From Deltaproteobacteria bacterium (lineage in GTDB: Bacteria > Myxococcota_A > Polyangia > Polyangiales > Sandaracinaceae), in the NCBI GenBank assembly GCA_017303575.1, contig JAFLCL010000001.1, positions 62,001 to 126,000 of the forward strand: a stretch of 64,000 bases of DNA. Direction: 5' to 3'. Positions 896-9,667 of this stretch are shown here, one piece after another. The notes below the pieces were generated by a model. That model made no database searches. It was not told where the DNA came from and saw only the letters and a program-made list of their open reading frames with translations. Position 1 is the first letter of the stretch, and every line of letters starts with the position of its first letter. The position numbers and the translations under genes were made by a program.

Positions 896-2109
896 GGCGC
901 CTCCTGCGATGGCGAGGCGACGCTCGACGGAGGGACGCTGGCCGGGGCCGCGAGCTCCTCGTGCGGCTCGGCCTCTGAGAGCGTTCGTTCGAAGTGGACC
1001 ACCACACGACGGTTCAACGCGAGCGCGCGATCGTCGATCTCTTCGACGAGCGGCGCAGCTTCACCGTGGGCGCGGATCTCGATGCGCTCCGCGGCCACGC
1101 CGTGCGCGATCAGGAAGCCGCGCACCGCCTCGGCGCGTCGCGTGGAGAGCGCGCGGTTGTGGGCATCGTCGCCGTTGCCGTCGGCGTGGCCCTCCACGAT
1201 CAGGCGCGTGTCGGGCGGCGCTTCGTCGATCGCCTGCAGGAGATCGTAGAGCGAGGCCTCGCCGCAGCTCGAGAGGTCGGTCGTGTCGTGGTCGAACAAG
1301 AGCGGCGCCACCATCGACGCGATGGTGCGGTGCACGGTCGCGGGCACCGCGCGATCGACCAAGCGCATCAGCGCCTCGGGATCGCTGGGCGGTGGGGGCG
1401 GCAGCCTCCGTGTCTCGACGCGCACCACGGTTCGCTCGCGCACCTCGACACGCTCGGGCGGCGGTGAAGCGGGTGAGGGTCGAGGACGAAACGCCACGAC
1501 GACGCCCGCGCTCACGAAGAGCGCATCGCTCGTGCGCAGCGGCCCGTCCTCCCACAGCACGTGGGTCGCGGAGACCTCGGGTCCGGCGGACCACTCGTCG
1601 CCGAGGTCGATCCAGAAGCCCGCGCTCCCCTCGAACACGGGCGCCACGACGAGGCCGGTGACACCGACGCCGAACGCGACACGCGCATACGGCGTGAAGC
1701 GATCGAGCCGCGGCAGGAGCCGCACGCCGAGCATCGCGTGCACCAGACCGCCCGCTCCTTCGCGACCTCCCACGAAGAGACCGCCCAGCGAGAGCTCGCC
1801 CGCGATCCAAGGCAGCGGGCGCAGACCTCCGGTCAACGTGATCCCCGCGCCTTCTCGGTCGAAGAGGAGGATCTGACGCTGGTCGTCGGTGGCCATCGCG
1901 CCGCCTCGGAGCGAGAGCGAGAGCACGTGCTCGGACTCCGCGGGCAGGCCGATCGGTCGACGCGCGAAGGCGGCGAGCTCTCGAGCGGCTTCTTCGTCGA
2001 TCGCCACCTCGTCATCGTCCGCGCGCGCCTCGGTGGCCGGCAGGAGCAGCAGCGTCGCCGGGAGTACGGCGGCCAGGAGCGCGGCGTGCGGTGCACCAGG
2101 GAGGCTCAC
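892..2109 (-). CDS. OmpA-family outer-membrane protein
   Basis: 405 residues. Residues 1-30 are a signal peptide ending ARA. Residues about 60-208 look like a small beta-barrel (alternating hydrophobic strands, many glycines). A Pro-rich linker follows (210-245), then an OmpA/MotB-type peptidoglycan-binding domain at about 268-376. That domain carries the typical GHADGNGDDAHNRALSTRRA segment, in which the conserved Asp, Asn and Arg bind diaminopimelate. The tail is Ala/Pro/Ser-rich. The likely role is anchoring the outer membrane to peptidoglycan. It overlaps the downstream lipoprotein gene by four bases (ATGA), indicating one operon. The barrel part is assigned from composition only. Confidence 0.85.
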   Translation of the reverse strand: MSLPGAPHAALLAAVLPATLLLLPATEARADDDEVAIDEEAARELAAFARRPIGLPAESEHVLSLSLRGGAMATDDQRQILLFDREGAGITLTGGLRPLPWIAGELSLGGLFVGGREGAGGLVHAMLGVRLLPRLDRFTPYARVAFGVGVTGLVVAPVFEGSAGFWIDLGDEWSAGPEVSATHVLWEDGPLRTSDALFVSAGVVVAFRPRPSPASPPPERVEVRERTVVRVETRRLPPPPPSDPEALMRLVDRAVPATVHRTIASMVAPLLFDHDTTDLSSCGEASLYDLLQAIDEAPPDTRLIVEGHADGNGDDAHNRALSTRRAEAVRGFLIAHGVAAERIEIRAHGEAAPLVEEIDDRALALNRRVVVHFERTLSEAEPHEELAAPASVPPSSVASPSQEAP

Positions 2110-2194
2110 GTCATGAGTCGCCGTGCACGCTGCCGATTTCCAACGCGTCGATGGGGCGAGTGTCGTGGTACCGTCGCCGCACCAGAGGGAGCCG

Positions 2195-2578
2195 ATGCAG
2201 GACTATCAAGAAGCCATGCTCAAGTCGCTCGTCGCTGTCGCGTGGGCGGACGGTCGCGTCGATGCCGAAGAGCACGAGGTCATCGAGGCGCTGATCTCCG
2301 CCTTCGAGGTCGGCAACGAGGACGCGGACGCGATCCGCGAGTTCGCCAAGACGCCGAAGAAGATCGACGACGTCCCGCTGAGCGACCTCTCGGCGAGCGA
2401 TCGTCGCGTGCTGCTCCAGCACGCCGTGATCCTCACCTACATCGACGGCACGCAGACCGACAAGGAGAAGGAGGTCCTCACCTCCCTCGTCTCCAAGCTC
2501 CGCGTCCCGGCCGACGAAGCGACGCAGATCCTCGCGGACGCCGACGCCCGAGCCAAGCGCCTGCTCTCCCTCCTCTGA
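2195..2578 (+). CDS. TerB-like (tellurite-resistance-domain) cytoplasmic protein
   Basis: 127 residues. The start at 2195 is preferred over an upstream in-frame codon because AGAGGGA lies just before it. The protein is all-helical, with two acidic, EF-hand-like segments (ADGRVDAEEHEVI, residues 18-30, and IDGTQTDKEKEVL, 83-95) that are characteristic of the TerB/DjlA N-terminal fold. Family members are thought to bind metal or act as small scaffolds; the function here is unknown. It is a stand-alone gene, divergent from the OmpA operon and convergent with the next gene. Confidence 0.75.
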   Translation: MQDYQEAMLKSLVAVAWADGRVDAEEHEVIEALISAFEVGNEDADAIREFAKTPKKIDDVPLSDLSASDRRVLLQHAVILTYIDGTQTDKEKEVLTSLVSKLRVPADEATQILADADARAKRLLSLL

Positions 2579-2599
2579 TGAGAAAGGCACCGCGAGGGG

Positions 2600-2670
2600 C
2601 ACGCGGGCGGGGGTCGCAGCGCAGCGTCGGTGCGGAGACAACACGCGGAGCGGAGGCCCCCGCCCGCGTG
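2600..2670. terminator. Perfect 14-bp inverted repeat between convergent genes
   Basis: CACGCGGGCGGGGG at 2600-2613 is exactly complementary to CCCCCGCCCGCGTG at 2657-2670, with a 43-base loop. It sits between the stops of two convergent genes, so it could terminate transcription in both directions. There is no T-tract, so a Rho-independent role is uncertain. Confidence 0.4.
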
Positions 2671-2746
2671 ACCCGTCCACTGGGTTTCATCTCGATGGCT
2701 CGCCCGGCCGCAAGGCGCCCCCGAATCGTTCTCGGTCTCTGACTGA

Positions 2747-3361
2747 TCAGGTGCCGAAGCGGATGCCGAGGCCTGCTTCGGCCCAGATTCCGGGCATGCG
2801 CGCGTAGTCGTCCAAACGGACGTGGAACGCGAGCACGCCCGTGAGCGCCCACTCGCGCGTGAACCACCAGTCGGCCGACATGCCCGCCGACACCTGCGCG
2901 CCGAAGCGCCACTCGTCCGAGAAGCGCTCGAGCACCGGGATGATGTCGCCGTTGTCGTTCTCGTAGGTGCGCGCGAGCTGCGCGGCCCCGTGCATCGCGA
3001 AGTACATCCCGGCGCCCACGAGCGCCTGCAGGCGATAGCCACAGCTGCCGCAGTGGTGCTCGTCGAGGAGGAAGCGCGCGCGCAGCACGTCGAGCGTGGC
3101 GAGCAGATCCTGTCGCTGCTCGTTGCCGTCCTGCCCGCCGAACGCGACCGACGCGGAGGGCCCGAGGTTGAAGCCGCACGGCGTGTGGAGCTCGATCTCG
3201 AGGTCGTAGCCGACGAGCCACGCGGCCCCTGGGTCGAAGCGGCCGCCGACGTAGATCGCCTCCGTCGTGTCGTGCCGCTGCTGCGCCGAAGCGACGGCGC
3301 TGAGGTGGGTGGTGAGGAGCGCGAGGGTGAGGAAGACGAGCGTGGAGATCGGATGACGCAT
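2747..3361 (-). CDS. Putative outer-membrane beta-barrel protein
   Basis: 204 residues from the ATG at 3361; an in-frame extension upstream is rejected because a clean signal peptide (residues 1-27, ending VASAQ) starts here. The mature part shows glycine-rich amphipathic strands (for example AIYVGGRFDPGAAWLVGYDL) and ends GLGIRFGT, as in small outer-membrane barrels. A Cys-x-x-Cys pair (HHCGSCGYR) lies mid-protein. No specific family is recognised. It is divergent from the MpaB-type oxygenase gene, with a 105-base shared upstream region. Confidence 0.65.
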   Translation of the reverse strand: MRHPISTLVFLTLALLTTHLSAVASAQQRHDTTEAIYVGGRFDPGAAWLVGYDLEIELHTPCGFNLGPSASVAFGGQDGNEQRQDLLATLDVLRARFLLDEHHCGSCGYRLQALVGAGMYFAMHGAAQLARTYENDNGDIIPVLERFSDEWRFGAQVSAGMSADWWFTREWALTGVLAFHVRLDDYARMPGIWAEAGLGIRFGT

Positions 3362-4527: not shown

Positions 4528-4803
4528 TCAGCAGGGCTCGAGCGCGGGCGGTACGAAGGGACCAGGCACCGCAGGCCAGAGGCACCGACCACCCGCGGCG
4601 TCGTAGTGCGCACCCTGATTGCTGCAGCACGTCTCGGCGGAGCCGTTACGGATCGACCAGCCCGCGCACGTCTGGCCGTCCATGCCGGTGCCATCGAGCA
4701 CGCGCGCGACCACACGGTCACAGCCCGACGAGAGCACGACGCCCGACAGGCCCGCCACCACCATCGCTGCGCGGAGCGCGCGTTCACGCGCGGGAGAGGA
4801 CAT
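4528..4803 (-). CDS. Small Cys-rich lipoprotein with VPGPFVPP signature (family member 1)
   Basis: 91 residues from ATG 4803 (a TTG at 4839 is an alternative). The signal peptide contains RALRAA and a lipobox giving Cys28. The mature part has the pattern C46-x12-C59-C60-x13-C74-x4-VPGPFVPP (79-86), followed by a final Cys91. Two other genes in this window (8868-9203 and 9203-9667) share the ALRAA signal-peptide motif, the same four-cysteine spacing and the identical VPGPFVPP tail, so this is a real gene family. The cysteines could form two disulfides or bind metal. The function is unknown. It is divergent from the ion-channel gene and convergent with the MpaB-type gene. Confidence 0.75.
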   Translation of the reverse strand: MSSPARERALRAAMVVAGLSGVVLSSGCDRVVARVLDGTGMDGQTCAGWSIRNGSAETCCSNQGAHYDAAGGRCLWPAVPGPFVPPALEPC

Positions 4804-4866
4804 CACGGGACTGTCGATCGTGACGCGCGATCGGGTCAACGGCCCCTCGTGCCATCATCGCGCGCG

Positions 4867-6009
4867 ATGACGCCGCGACGCTCTCGCTGGTTCGTGCTGC
4901 TGCCCGCGCTGGCGATGGGGCTCGCGGTGATCGCGACGCGATCCGCCGCGCAGCCGACGCCGATGGGACCGTCCGCGCCAGAGGCGTCCTCGGACACCGC
5001 GGAGACAGCCGCCGTGGCAGAGGCGAGCGCCGAAGCGAGCAGCGGAGACGGCGCCCCCGAAGCGGCAGAGGCAGACGACCGAGAGGCGGAAGACGGCATT
5101 CCGTCGCACGTGACCGTCGGCCTCTACATGCATCACATCCCCGAGCTCGATCTGCCGACCTCGAGCTACCTCGCCGACTTCTATCTCTGGTTCCTCTGGC
5201 GCGGTGAGCCCGACCCCACGGAGAACTGGGAGATCACGAACCTCGTCGAGGGCTGGGATCTCATGGCGGAGCCGCTCTACGTGGACGACGAAGGCGAGCC
5301 CGCGCCCGAGCTCCTGCCCGATGGTCGGCACTACCAGCTCTTCCACGTGCAGGGCCGCTTCGGTCATCCGTTCGACGTGCACGCGTATCCGTTCGACGCG
5401 CAGGACATCGTCATCGAGGTCGAGGACGGCGAGTACCTCACGGACGAGCTGATCTACGAGGTCGATCCCGGCTCGACGCTGCTCCATCCGACGCTCGAGG
5501 TGCCGGGCTGGGATCTCGGCACGCCGACACCGACGGTGATCGAGAGCGTGTACCCCACGAACTTCGGCGACATCCGCAACCCGGAGGGCGGCGATCACTA
5601 CTCGCAGTTCCGCTACGTGCTCCGCGTGCAGCGACCGGTGCTCGGCGCGTTCGTGAAGACGATCGTGCCCATCGCGGTCGTGATGATGATCACGCTCGTG
5701 ATGTTCTTGATCGACCCGAAGTACTTCGAGGGGCGGCTGGGCCTCGGCATCACGAGCTTGATCTCGGCCGTCGCGCTGCAGCTCACGGCCGCGGCCGATC
5801 TGCCTGCGACCGGCTACCTCGTGCTCCTCGATCACGTCTACAACGCGAGCTACGTCGTGATCTTCGTGGCGCTGCTCGAGAGCGTGATCTCGGTGCGCAT
5901 CGCCGATCAGGGCGACGTGGCCCGCGCGCGCCGGCTGGACCTCGGGACGCTCGTGGTGCTGAGCCTCGCCTTCTTCGGCACGGTCGCGGCCCTCGTCGTG
6001 ACGCGCTGA
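4867..6009 (+). CDS. Pentameric ligand-gated ion channel homologue (prokaryotic Cys-loop family)
   Basis: 380 residues from ATG 4867. Residues 1-29 are a signal peptide (ending AAQ), 30-76 an acidic Ala/Glu linker, and about 80-255 an extracellular ligand-binding-type domain. That domain includes the invariant YPFD (174-177) of the Cys-loop, without the cysteines, as in bacterial members such as GLIC and ELIC. Four membrane helices follow at about 262-283 (with the conserved Pro of M1), 291-310 (pore-lining M2), 318-342 and 357-378. It should form a pentameric channel gated by an unknown ligand. The short M3-M4 loop is typical of prokaryotic members. The downstream vWA-protein gene follows after 45 bases in the same direction. 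Confidence 0.88.
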   Translation: MTPRRSRWFVLLPALAMGLAVIATRSAAQPTPMGPSAPEASSDTAETAAVAEASAEASSGDGAPEAAEADDREAEDGIPSHVTVGLYMHHIPELDLPTSSYLADFYLWFLWRGEPDPTENWEITNLVEGWDLMAEPLYVDDEGEPAPELLPDGRHYQLFHVQGRFGHPFDVHAYPFDAQDIVIEVEDGEYLTDELIYEVDPGSTLLHPTLEVPGWDLGTPTPTVIESVYPTNFGDIRNPEGGDHYSQFRYVLRVQRPVLGAFVKTIVPIAVVMMITLVMFLIDPKYFEGRLGLGITSLISAVALQLTAAADLPATGYLVLLDHVYNASYVVIFVALLESVISVRIADQGDVARARRLDLGTLVVLSLAFFGTVAALVVTR

Positions 6010-6054
6010 GCCGAGACGCTCGGAACTCTCGACTCGAGCCGCTGTCGATGCGGG

Positions 6055-8016
6055 ATGCGCAGGATCACGCTGCTCTCGCTGATGGCGCTCGCGAGCACCC
6101 CGCACGTCGTATCCGCGCAGTCGACCCACCTCGGCGCGCGGACGATGCCGATCGCCTCGCCCGCTCCGACCGCGCCCACCACGACGTTCACGCTGCCGTC
6201 GTCCGCGCCACCGCCAGGGCCCGCCGTCGAGCTCGCGAGGCACCGCATGCACGTGACGATCGACGGTGGCTTCGCCGTCGTGTCCGAGGAGCTCACGCTC
6301 GAGGTCTCGAGCCGTCCGCGCTCTGCGCACGTCACGCACCTCGCCGTGCCTGCGAGGTCGGAGCTCGTCGCGCTCGAGGCTTGTCAGGCGGGCACATGCC
6401 GCGATGGCACCGCGGTGACGAACGCCAGACAGGTCTTCGAGTCCGCGCAGTACGGCGCTCGCACCACGGGCGGCGCGCCGCTCGCGCTCGCGCAGCGGGA
6501 CGGAGATCGCGTGTCCGTGCGGGTCGCCGGGCTCGAGACCGGCACCGCGACGATCCGCGTGGTCTGGAGCACGCCGACGGAGCGCATCGGTGGGCAGGAG
6601 CGCATGCGCATGCCCGCGCGCCCCGACTCGGCGGAGATCGTGCTGGTCAGTCCGTCGCTCGAGGATCTCGCGATCGACGGCGATCCCAGCCTCACCGAGA
6701 CTCCGCTCCTTCGGGCGTTCGACCTCGTCGGCACGGCGCCAGTCGGCGCGCCGACGCTCGAAGTAGGACGCATCACCGAGCTCGGTCGTGGCTTCGTGCG
6801 CGTGACCGCGCCATCCGTGCCCGCCCCCGCGCGACCCGTGGTGATCCTCGTGGACGCGTCGCCCAGCGCCCTGCGCAACGTCGAGGCGATGGAGGCTGCG
6901 CTCGCGATGCTGCTCGAGGAGACCCCGGACGGATCGAGCGTCAGGGTGATCGCGTTCGCGCGGCAGGCGCGCACGATCGCGGAAGGTGAGGTCGCGGCGC
7001 TGCGCCGAGATGGCGTCCGTGTGCCCGGCGACCTCGGGCCGTCGACCTCGCTGCGCGCGGCGCTCGCGAGCCTCGGGGACGTACCCGAAGGGGCAACGCT
7101 CGTGTGGCTGAGCGATGGCGCGGGGAGCCCCAACGAGGCCGATCGGGAAGCGCTCGCGCGGCTCGGAGTGCGCGAGCACGTAGTCGCTTCGACGGGATCG
7201 CAGCAGGTCGGCAACGTCGATCCCGTGGGCGATCCGTGGGCCGCACGCGCACGCCTGGCGGCGAGCTTCGCCGAAGCGATCGAGACGACGATCGGCGAGC
7301 GCGTCGTGAGGGTGCTCGCCGGTGGGTCTGTCCTCGTCTCCGTGCGTTCGGTCGACGACGTGCCGTCCACCGCCGTCGCGTCGCGCGTCCCCCTGATCGC
7401 GAGCGGCCCCGTGATCCGTGCGTCGCTCGGATGGGTCACACCCGAGGCGCTGCTCACGCTCGACCCGCGTGATCGGCATGCGGCGAACAAGACCGGCCGC
7501 GGCCTCTTCGGCGTCTTCGTGGGGGGCGGCGGCCTCGAGGGAAGCCGCCGGCCTTCGATCCGAATCTGCGTCTGCGGTGGCACGGACGGTCGGGGCTCCG
7601 TGAGCCGCGAGTCCTACGCGCGGATGATGGCGAACCTGCGCGCTCCCGTGAGCGCGTGCTTCGCCAGGGCGCGCGACGGTGACCCGCGCTACGAAGCGCG
7701 AGCGACGTTCGAGCTCGCGCTCCGTGGAAACGAGCTCGCTGCCGCCCACGTCGAGACCGAGGACCCCGAGCTCCGGACGTGTCTGCTCGAGACGCTCGAT
7801 GACCTCGTGATCCCGCCGGCCGAGGGCCCGCAGAACGGCACGACCGTGATCCGTTATCCGTTCGTGTCGCGGGCATCGGACACGCGCATCGAGGCGGCCC
7901 CGCTCTCGCTCGACACCACGGAGATCATCGACGGTGCGTTCGCGAGCGAGCCATCGGTCCCGCCGATGTCTCTTGTCGCGAACATCGCCGACGCCGATTC
8001 GACGACGACGCCCTGA
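6055..8016 (+). CDS. Secreted VIT/vWA-domain protein with AgmX/PglI-like C-terminus
   Basis: 653 residues. Signal peptide 1-21 (VVSAQ). Residues about 60-175 resemble a VIT (inter-alpha-trypsin) domain. About 260-430 is a von Willebrand A domain with the MIDAS start D267-A-S-P-S271. The C-terminal 535-640 region (RAPVSACFARA ... RTCLLETLDDLVIPP) resembles the tail domain of myxobacterial AgmX/PglI-type gliding and adhesion proteins. Such proteins are exported and may bind partners through the metal site. It lies 45 bases downstream of the ion-channel gene in the same direction and is back-to-back at its stop with the diiron-protein operon. Confidence 0.75.
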   Translation: MRRITLLSLMALASTPHVVSAQSTHLGARTMPIASPAPTAPTTTFTLPSSAPPPGPAVELARHRMHVTIDGGFAVVSEELTLEVSSRPRSAHVTHLAVPARSELVALEACQAGTCRDGTAVTNARQVFESAQYGARTTGGAPLALAQRDGDRVSVRVAGLETGTATIRVVWSTPTERIGGQERMRMPARPDSAEIVLVSPSLEDLAIDGDPSLTETPLLRAFDLVGTAPVGAPTLEVGRITELGRGFVRVTAPSVPAPARPVVILVDASPSALRNVEAMEAALAMLLEETPDGSSVRVIAFARQARTIAEGEVAALRRDGVRVPGDLGPSTSLRAALASLGDVPEGATLVWLSDGAGSPNEADREALARLGVREHVVASTGSQQVGNVDPVGDPWAARARLAASFAEAIETTIGERVVRVLAGGSVLVSVRSVDDVPSTAVASRVPLIASGPVIRASLGWVTPEALLTLDPRDRHAANKTGRGLFGVFVGGGGLEGSRRPSIRICVCGGTDGRGSVSRESYARMMANLRAPVSACFARARDGDPRYEARATFELALRGNELAAAHVETEDPELRTCLLETLDDLVIPPAEGPQNGTTVIRYPFVSRASDTRIEAAPLSLDTTEIIDGAFASEPSVPPMSLVANIADADSTTTP

Positions 8017-8868
8017 TCAGGCCGCGCGCTTGTCGGCCCAGGCCTTCTTGCCGGGCAGACCGAGCTCCTCGAAGCGCGGCACGATCACGTCTTCGAGCAC
8101 GGCGTAGAGGATCTCGCGACCGTCCTTGCCGTCGATCGCCCCGAGCGCGGCGAGCTCGCTGCGGAGCGCCTCGGAGATCGGCGGAGGCAGCGGCATGGCG
8201 GCGAGCATCTTCTGCTCGATGCTCCCGAGCGCGAGCGGCAGGTAGCGCGCGAGGCCCTCACGCTCTTCCGCGTCGAGCATCGGCAACCAATCTCCGAGCA
8301 AAGACCAGCCCAGCTTCGCGTGCAGGATCTCGTCGGCCGAGAGCTGCTCGACCACGCGGTGGATGCGCGGCTCGGTCGTCACCTCGCGCTCCTCGGCGAG
8401 CAGCGACGTGCTGATCGTCTCGCTCAGACACGACGCGAAGATCACGTTGCGGAGCGCGCGCTCCCGCGGCGTGCGGCCCACGTGCTCGGGCAGCGGCACG
8501 GTCGCGAGATCGCCCTCGATCTCGGGCGTTCCGCCGAGGTAGCGCACGACGTCGAGGCACAGCGACGCGTGGCGGATCTCGTCCATCGCGCTGCGGAGGA
8601 TCACGGTCTTGTACTCGATGCTCGCCTCGGCCTCGATCAGCTGCGGCAAGAGGCGCGAGAACACGCACGAGCTCTGGTGCTCGTGCAGCGCGCGCGCCCG
8701 CCACGCCTCGCGCGCGATCTCGATCGCGCGTGGCGAGGCATCGCCTTCGTAGACCACGCCGTCGGGGATCTCGGGCGCCTCGTCGCCTCGACGCAGCGCC
8801 GTGCGCACCAGGCGCTCGTGCTCGGTGCGGAGAGGCGAGCTGCCGACGCGCAGACGCAGGGTGCCCAT
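8017..8868 (-). CDS. Ferritin-like diiron protein, AurF-type motif pair
   Basis: 283 residues from ATG 8868; an in-frame extension upstream would overlap the preceding gene and is rejected. Two matching metal motifs are visible: E63-x32-D96-E97-x2-H100 and E150-x28-D179-E180-x2-H183. This is the duplicated E-x(28-37)-DExxH arrangement described for AurF-type non-haem diiron N-oxygenases, set in a four-helix ferritin-like fold. The protein is therefore likely an oxygen-activating diiron oxidase or oxygenase, substrate unknown. It has no signal peptide. Its start overlaps the stop of the upstream lipoprotein gene (TGATG), so it is the last gene of a four-gene coupled operon with a molybdopterin oxidoreductase. 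Confidence 0.8.
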   Translation of the reverse strand: MGTLRLRVGSSPLRTEHERLVRTALRRGDEAPEIPDGVVYEGDASPRAIEIAREAWRARALHEHQSSCVFSRLLPQLIEAEASIEYKTVILRSAMDEIRHASLCLDVVRYLGGTPEIEGDLATVPLPEHVGRTPRERALRNVIFASCLSETISTSLLAEEREVTTEPRIHRVVEQLSADEILHAKLGWSLLGDWLPMLDAEEREGLARYLPLALGSIEQKMLAAMPLPPPISEALRSELAALGAIDGKDGREILYAVLEDVIVPRFEELGLPGKKAWADKRAA

Positions 8869-9203
8869 CAGCTCGACTCCTCGATCGGCGGGACGAACGG
8901 CCCCGGCACGCCCACGAAGCACTCCGCGAAGCCGCCGTCGTACACGTACCACTCGCCTCCACCGAGCACGCAGCAGATGCGATCGCGCGGGATGAGGAGG
9001 CGACAGTCGGCATCACCCGGAAAGTGCGCGTCGACGAAGGCGTCGTCGTCGTAGAAGACGAGCGGCGCGTCCATCGTCGCGTCGGGAGCGCTCGTCCCCG
9101 CGTCGCCGTCGGTGCTCGGCGGGCTCGAGCATCCAGTGACGACGAGACCGCACGCGACCTGCGCGGCGCGCAGCGCGATCGAGCGCCCGCGCGAGCCGCG
9201 CAT
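8868..9203 (-). CDS. Small Cys-rich lipoprotein with VPGPFVPP signature (family member 2)
   Basis: 111 residues. The signal peptide contains ALRAA and a lipobox at VVTGC (Cys25); then an Asp-Ala-rich linker (30-65). The mature domain follows C67-x9-C77-C78-x16-C95-x3-VPGPFVPP (99-106). Both ends are coupled: its ATG overlaps the stop of the preceding lipoprotein gene (TGATG at 9201-9205) and its stop overlaps the ATG of the diiron-protein gene (TGATG at 8866-8870). Location is presumably the periplasmic face of a membrane, while the flanking enzymes lack signal peptides. No function is known. Confidence 0.8.
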   Translation of the reverse strand: MRGSRGRSIALRAAQVACGLVVTGCSSPPSTDGDAGTSAPDATMDAPLVFYDDDAFVDAHFPGDADCRLLIPRDRICCVLGGGEWYVYDGGFAECFVGVPGPFVPPIEESS

Positions 9204-9667
9204 CAGCTCACCATGGACGGCGGCACGAACGGACCAGGGACCGCGATCGCGCAGAAGCTCGACTCACCGTCCCAGAAGCCACCCGCGAGCTCGCAGCACG
9301 GCTGGTTCGTGGGTGGGAAGTCGGGGCCGCAGCCGCCATCGCCCGCGAACGTGTAGGCGTCCTCGATGGTGGGCGCGTCTTCGCCCGCGCTGGGCGCGTC
9401 CTCGCCCGTCGAAGGCGCATCGGCGGCGGCGAACGCGTCGAGACCGACGTCGGGGCCTGGTCCGATCTCGAGCGGCACGGGGGCATCGATCGGCGCGTCG
9501 GGCGTCTCCGCGACGAAGGCGTCGGGGCTCGGCGCCGTGAACGCATCGGGGGTGTCGGTCCCGCCGCCGCAGGCAGCGAGGCCGACGATGGAAGCCGAGA
9601 GCGTCGCGGCGCGCGCTGCGCGGAGGGCGCGCGCGCGCCGGAGCGTGAGAGCATCGAAGTCAGTCAT
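9203..9667 (-). CDS. Small Cys-rich lipoprotein with VPGPFVPP signature (family member 3)
   Basis: 154 residues. The N-terminus contains RALRAA and a lipobox (GLAAC, Cys33). A long Asp-Ala-Pro linker (37-108, repeated DAF/DAP units) holds the domain away from the membrane. The C-terminal domain is C113-x10-C124-C125-x13-C139-x3-VPGPFVPP (143-150), homologous to the other two members in this window. Its ATG overlaps the TGA of the molybdopterin oxidoreductase gene (ATGA at 9664-9667), and its stop overlaps the next lipoprotein start. Strict coupling suggests fixed stoichiometry with the flanking redox enzymes. The biochemical role is unknown. Confidence 0.8.
   Translation of the reverse strand: MTDFDALTLRRARALRAARAATLSASIVGLAACGGGTDTPDAFTAPSPDAFVAETPDAPIDAPVPLEIGPGPDVGLDAFAAADAPSTGEDAPSAGEDAPTIEDAYTFAGDGGCGPDFPPTNQPCCELAGGFWDGESSFCAIAVPGPFVPPSMVS

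Follow-up and report, generated by a model that had tools for sequence, protein, structure and literature searches.

A myxobacterial lipoprotein family with a conserved Cys...GPxxPP tail is genetically paired with a predicted ferritin-like diiron oxygenase

Introduction

The closest described counterparts of the locus reported here are the DAG-RiPPs, which are made by MNIO enzymes of the ChrH/DybH type. DybH recognises only the C-terminal CPxCxMG motif of its lipoproteins (PMC12636315). Work on MNIO enzymes indicates that recognition needs no more than a short C-terminal motif, which leaves the N-terminal parts open to variation, and that the products can subsequently be lipidated (PMC12636315). 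A further group of MNIO products, the bufferins, are Cys-rich exported proteins, some of which are lipidated (PMC12452194).

Here we analyzed a window, by which we mean the whole stretch of 64,000 nucleotides of DNA under study, in which lipoproteins also share a short C-terminal motif and the neighboring gene also encodes a putative iron enzyme. Both the motif and the predicted fold of the enzyme are different from those of the MNIO systems.

Results

We examined three genes that a preliminary description had grouped by an ALRAA signal-peptide motif, a C..CC..C pattern and an identical VPGPFVPP tail. All three were recovered with these traits on the minus strand, together with the gene of a putative diiron enzyme:

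4528..4803, minus strand: P1, 91-aa lipoprotein precursor with the tail VPGPFVPPALEPC, supported by the ORF and by an orthologue in a same-genus genome
4546..4569, minus strand: VPGPFVPP codons of P1 (residues 79-86)
8017..8868, minus strand: predicted ferritin-like diiron enzyme, 283 aa, with the ligand-type residues E63, E97xxH100, E150 and E180xxH183
8868..9203, minus strand: P2, 111-aa lipoprotein precursor with the tail VPGPFVPPIEESS
8886..8909, minus strand: VPGPFVPP codons of P2 (residues 99-106)
9203..9667, minus strand: P3, 154-aa lipoprotein precursor with an Asp/Ala/Pro-rich linker, a Cys region and the tail VPGPFVPPSMVS
9218..9241, minus strand: VPGPFVPP codons of P3 (residues 143-150)

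TGATG stop/start overlaps connect the stop of P3 with the start of P2 and the stop of P2 with the start of the diiron gene. P1 has no diiron gene adjoining it and is convergent with an MpaB gene in the window. The lipoprotein assignment follows the lipobox pattern, with the lipobox Cys at C28 in P1, C25 in P2 and C33 in P3. The four-cysteine spacing, described earlier as identical, proved only similar, at C-x12/9/10-CC-x13/16/13-C in P1/P2/P3. The eight tail residues are encoded by GTG CCT GGT CCC TTC GTA CCG CCC in P1, GTG CCG GGG CCG TTC GTC CCG CCG in P2 and GTC CCT GGT CCG TTC GTG CCG CCG in P3. Because these codons differ synonymously, it is the peptide and not the DNA that is conserved, indicating selection at the level of the peptide; the window composition gives VPGPFVPP a probability of ~4e-10 per site.

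The family was proposed to be new to domain databases, and this holds for the two that were searched. Pfam gave no match at E<=1 for P1, P2 or P3, NCBIfam gave only matches below cut-off, and no common known domain containing the tail was found in either. The lipo-invert C-terminal anchor model (NF058595) reached 15.5 bits against a cut-off of 37, and its match lay at the N-terminus of P3. The predicted lipoprotein structure is of low confidence overall, with a confident small helix-hairpin at residues ~110-140 and values near 70 at the tail.

A search with the 44 C-terminal residues recovered a further two family members on contig C201 of the window genome, as well as homologues from its genus, family and order. 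In the precursor alignment, M1, the A-L pair of ALRAA, the lipobox Cys, CC, C and PGPF-PP are retained and the linkers differ, as had been claimed; the Cys at the lipobox position, assigned by pattern, is invariant in 18/18 aligned precursors. Between the window genome and a same-genus genome, the tail is identical at 8/8 positions in all three orthologues, and linker identity is 18/20, 29/50 and 42/91, so that for P1 the linker, too, is well conserved. Literature searches, whose coverage lacked most subscription journals, returned no description of the family or the system, and the lipoproteins form a large, apparently undescribed myxobacterial family.

Among the called genes of the surveyed loci, 16 lipobox proteins carry an ALRAA-type segment. 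Thirteen have the tail by regular expression, and two of the three tail-negative ones (L154, L176) are family members that the expression missed. Since nearly all ALRAA lipobox proteins are thus family members, the segment is close to a family mark, and it may be a second recognition element. The N-terminal pattern of the GPL class differs from the ALRAA type. Tat export from the RRxALR stretch was considered and ruled out, the second Arg not being conserved.

Across the wider set, the motif that defines the family is C..x-GP[FPLY]x-PP, that is, GP[F/P/L/Y]x-PP after a Cys. In 92 precursors, G and P are present in 100%, PP in 94-96%, and a Cys at -4 in 76%. With these values and diverging linkers, the family has the conserved motif in variable precursors that is looked for in RiPPs. 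Three tail types were distinguished, VPGPF(V/T)PP, (I/V)GPLxPP and WGP(P/F/Y)xPP, and the IGPL and WGPP variants rule out VPGPFVPP as a universal motif. The tail had been suggested to be a binding or sorting signal. It does behave like a recognition signal; a surface-sorting role is unsupported, since the proteins are anchored through the N-terminal lipobox and neither a transmembrane helix nor a basic cluster lies behind the tail. In the VPGPF class only a few residues and no helix come after the motif, unlike in a MYXO-CTERM-type signal.

Some members depart from the common form. WGPP-class precursors at L145, L155, L170 and L171 have CC pairs that recur at distances of ~30-40 residues ahead of the tail. 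At L050:5519-6442 (contig C239 of genome G000), a 307-aa membrane protein that lacks a lipobox ends with VPGPFVPPSMDD; the only homologue found, L236 (35% identity), lies in a sister genome and lacks the tail. One family member (L040:620-1435) adjoins a fatty-acid-hydroxylase-type gene (PF04116), which belongs to another iron oxygenase family.

We next consider the protein encoded beside P2 and P3. In 63 enzyme sequences, the six ligand-type residues (E63, E97, H100, E150, E180, H183) show no variation, and neither do C104, H129, W56 and R59. AlphaFold2 with 63 natural homologues gave a model of pLDDT 97, and its nearest PDB folds (Foldseek, VIA-align) are ADO, PaaA, VlmB, soluble methane monooxygenase (sMMO) and R2, with Z ~17. 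With a four-helix bundle predicted and the E, ExxH, E, ExxH pattern present, the enzyme is predicted to belong to the ferritin-like diiron oxygenase superfamily. No Pfam or NCBIfam model claims it above cut-off: the window enzyme scores 20 bits for AurF (PF11583) against a gathering cut-off of 29.6, and 15/63 of its relatives match AurF at E<=0.01. The MNIO model PF05114 matches 0/63 enzymes, and the MNIO genes of the window genome are on other contigs. No signal peptide was seen in the enzyme, which should therefore be cytosolic.

In neighborhood comparisons, the diiron gene repeatedly adjoins a lipoprotein gene. To survey this pairing, we searched 377 genomes from the phylum and a set of 84,980 species genomes with the enzyme alone, presupposing no tail. 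All 71 of 71 loci from the latter search were in records labelled Myxococcota, 'Deltaproteobacteria', Proteobacteria or merely bacterium. After removal of duplicates, 89 full-length enzymes scored >190 bits, and 76 of these 89 have, by regular expression, a same-strand adjoining ORF with C..GPxxP[PGA] near its end. When the exceptions to the regular expressions were read, the count rose to 80/89 adjoining and 84/89 within ~2 kb; these counts rest on gene calls from a simple codon-bias caller, and some loci are short MAG contigs. The paired loci belong to Sandaracinaceae, Nannocystis, Sorangium, Polyangium, Minicystis and others in Myxococcota.

The exceptions are of several kinds. At L092, L145, L154 and L166 the adjoining gene has a variant tail (GPFVAP, WGPPMPV, WGPPVPR, or WGPPAPP further from the end), and at L041, L043, L094 and L102 a tail gene lies within ~2 kb of the enzyme. 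The genome of L116 has its lipoprotein on another contig, and L174 stops at a contig edge. At L176 (CAIXWQ010000018.1, ~1788 to 3336), an ALRAA lipoprotein, a Cys region containing GGPLAPAPMPP and the diiron domain are all encoded by a single ORF, either as a natural fusion or through a lost stop in the MAG. For L143 and L162, the enzyme is present and no tail gene was found nearby.

A tail neighbor was found in 0/11 of the distant AurF-like full-length relatives (<150 bits), and only 7/3,392 ORFs further from the enzyme fit the tail pattern. A GPF pattern scan of relatives gave many chance matches and was left out of the counts. Enzyme and lipoprotein co-occur in genomes with a Fisher p of ~3e-18. 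The enzyme is genetically paired with a tail-bearing lipoprotein throughout Myxococcota, and the precursor gene is encoded with a dedicated enzyme gene, as is looked for in a RiPP system. The C201 pair, like P1, has no enzyme gene adjoining it.

We further compared the enzyme phylogeny with the tail types. In a phylogeny of 100 enzymes, those linked to a tail group together in a single clade (SH-aLRT 97). Tail type changes 3 times among the tail-bearing rows, and all labels together require 8 changes, compared with 38 when the labels were shuffled. Such clustering could arise from relatedness alone, and paralogues within one genome therefore matter as evidence. Two or more paralogous enzymes per genome each lie beside their own tail type in G000 (VPGPF/IGPL), G043 and G053 (VPGPF/WGPY) and G249 (VPGPF/WGPP). 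The enzyme profile alone led to the window genome's second enzyme (C468), and the genes just upstream of this enzyme end with CCAVIGPLYPPDLVV and CCAAVGPLSPPDLAV (CCAVIGPLYPP, CCAAVGPLSPP). Enzyme clade and tail type match, also between paralogues of one genome.

The preliminary description had placed all three lipoprotein genes beside redox-enzyme genes. The diiron gene is indeed a conserved neighbor; the MpaB and Mo-oxidoreductase genes are incidental, and both were ruled out as partners since they adjoin or lie close to the family in no more than two genomes, that of the window and one of the same genus. Adjacency of the Mo gene to the P2/P3-diiron locus is confined to the genus, and the MpaB gene lies near the P1 orthologue in the same-genus genome alone, separated from it by two predicted genes. 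Clustering of 507 neighbor proteins revealed no extra partner family throughout the set, with LysR and kinase families in subsets only.

Two further neighbors were observed. A gene for a LysR-type regulator lies near WGPP-class loci, mostly in Nannocystis (19 loci in the cluster; L131, L134, L135 and others). At 4855-6009 on the plus strand, the window encodes a protein like pentameric ligand-gated ion channels (TIGR00860, E 3e-16, below cut-off), whose gene also adjoins the P1 orthologue in the same-genus genome.

Discussion

From the computed pairing, covariation, fold and ligand residues, we infer a modification, its site and its chemistry. The lipoproteins are probably ribosomally made precursors that carry a site for modification at the C-terminus; the adjoining diiron enzyme is probably the cytosolic enzyme that modifies them. 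The enzyme would meet the unfolded precursor in the cytosol, bind the C-terminal C..x-GP[FPLY]x-PP segment and perhaps the ALRAA segment too, and oxidise the tail segment with O2 before export and lipidation. The likeliest sites would be the Cys 2-5 residues before GP, or the residues of h-G-P-x-x-P-P. The precursor would then pass to Sec and signal peptidase II and would end up in the envelope, held there by its lipid anchor and exposing a modified Cys/Pro tail. A single enzyme may act in trans on substrates encoded elsewhere, namely P1, the C201 pair and perhaps others; these copies, and the L040 copy beside the fatty-acid-hydroxylase-type gene, suggest such trans-acting use.

The genetic pairing itself might also reflect a complex or regulation. 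One alternative, which we regard as unlikely, is that the lipoprotein is a stable partner whose tail docks the enzyme at the inner membrane face, or which acts as a chaperone or activator, while the enzyme oxidises a small molecule. Pairing and tail/enzyme covariation would also follow from a binding interface, and related folds do act on small molecules. However, two substrates per enzyme and unlinked copies fit substrates better, and no conserved pathway genes lie beside the pair. Moreover, the lipobox and signal peptide carry the lipoprotein across the membrane and the enzyme lacks a signal, which makes a lasting complex improbable.

It is rather improbable that the tail is recognised in the envelope as a signal for sorting, maturation or binding, with the diiron gene linked for another reason such as shared regulation. 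Such a signal would suit a short near-terminal peptide that is strongly conserved while the linkers are free, as well as the small predicted Cys hairpin that precedes it and the one non-lipoprotein, L050, with the same tail. On the other hand, the sister-genome homologue of L050 lacks the tail, the pair has no other gene family as a recurrent neighbor throughout the set, and tail type tracks enzyme clade even between paralogues in one genome.

Metal handling, in which the lipoproteins, whether modified or not, would bind periplasmic copper or iron and the enzyme would be an iron- or oxygen-responsive partner as in a bufferin-like system, draws on C-termini that are Cys-rich throughout and is very improbable as a rival, with no recurrent metal transport genes and no EGKCG motif at the loci; it concerns function and is compatible with an enzyme-substrate relationship.

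We further regard it as somewhat more likely than not that enzyme and lipoproteins represent a new phylum-wide RiPP-lipoprotein class, in which a ferritin-like diiron oxygenase would read the Cys...GPxxPP tail and add an oxidative modification to proteins displayed at the myxobacterial envelope. Literature searches returned no report in which a ferritin-like diiron enzyme has a ribosomal peptide as its substrate. If the proposal is right, it would add a new enzyme class for ribosomal peptide modification, with ~90 enzyme-substrate pairs, and a large number of myxobacterial lipoproteins that now lack annotation would gain a chemical function. The tail might then serve as a portable modification tag, as CPxCxMG does with GFP. 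The RiPP-lipoprotein principle, reported so far with MNIO enzymes, would also have arisen with an unrelated iron enzyme.

Several known systems share features with this one. Like MYXO-CTERM and other C-terminal sorting signals, the tail is a short conserved C-terminal motif on otherwise unrelated secreted proteins; unlike them, it is followed by no helix or basic cluster, its proteins are anchored by an N-terminal lipobox, and its partner is a soluble oxygenase. Bufferins resemble the family in having a signal peptide, many Cys residues, an iron enzyme encoded nearby and, in part, lipidation (PMC12452194), whereas the present loci have no MNIO, EGKCG motif or copper link. AurF, CmlI, VlmB and the ADO/PaaA-type oxygenases share with the enzyme the predicted fold, the six carboxylate/His ligand-type residues and a weak Pfam AurF match. 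The enzyme differs from them in falling below the Pfam cut-off, in forming a distinct clade, in the additional invariant C104 and H129, and in its apparent substrate, a protein tail rather than a small molecule.

The nearest parallel is with DAG-RiPPs of the ChrH/DybH-type MNIO (PMC12636315). In both, a non-heme iron oxidative enzyme is encoded beside precursors that share only a short C-terminal Cys/Pro/Gly motif and vary in their N-terminal parts, the precursors have lipoprotein signal peptides with a lipobox Cys, and some larger proteins carry the motif. The present enzyme is predicted to be ferritin-like and not an MNIO (PF05114), the system is in Myxococcota, the tail is GP[FPLY]xPP after a Cys and not CPxCxMG, and a modification is here only inferred. 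The proposed logic would be that of the MNIO-made DAG-RiPPs, carried out with an unrelated enzyme and an unrelated motif.
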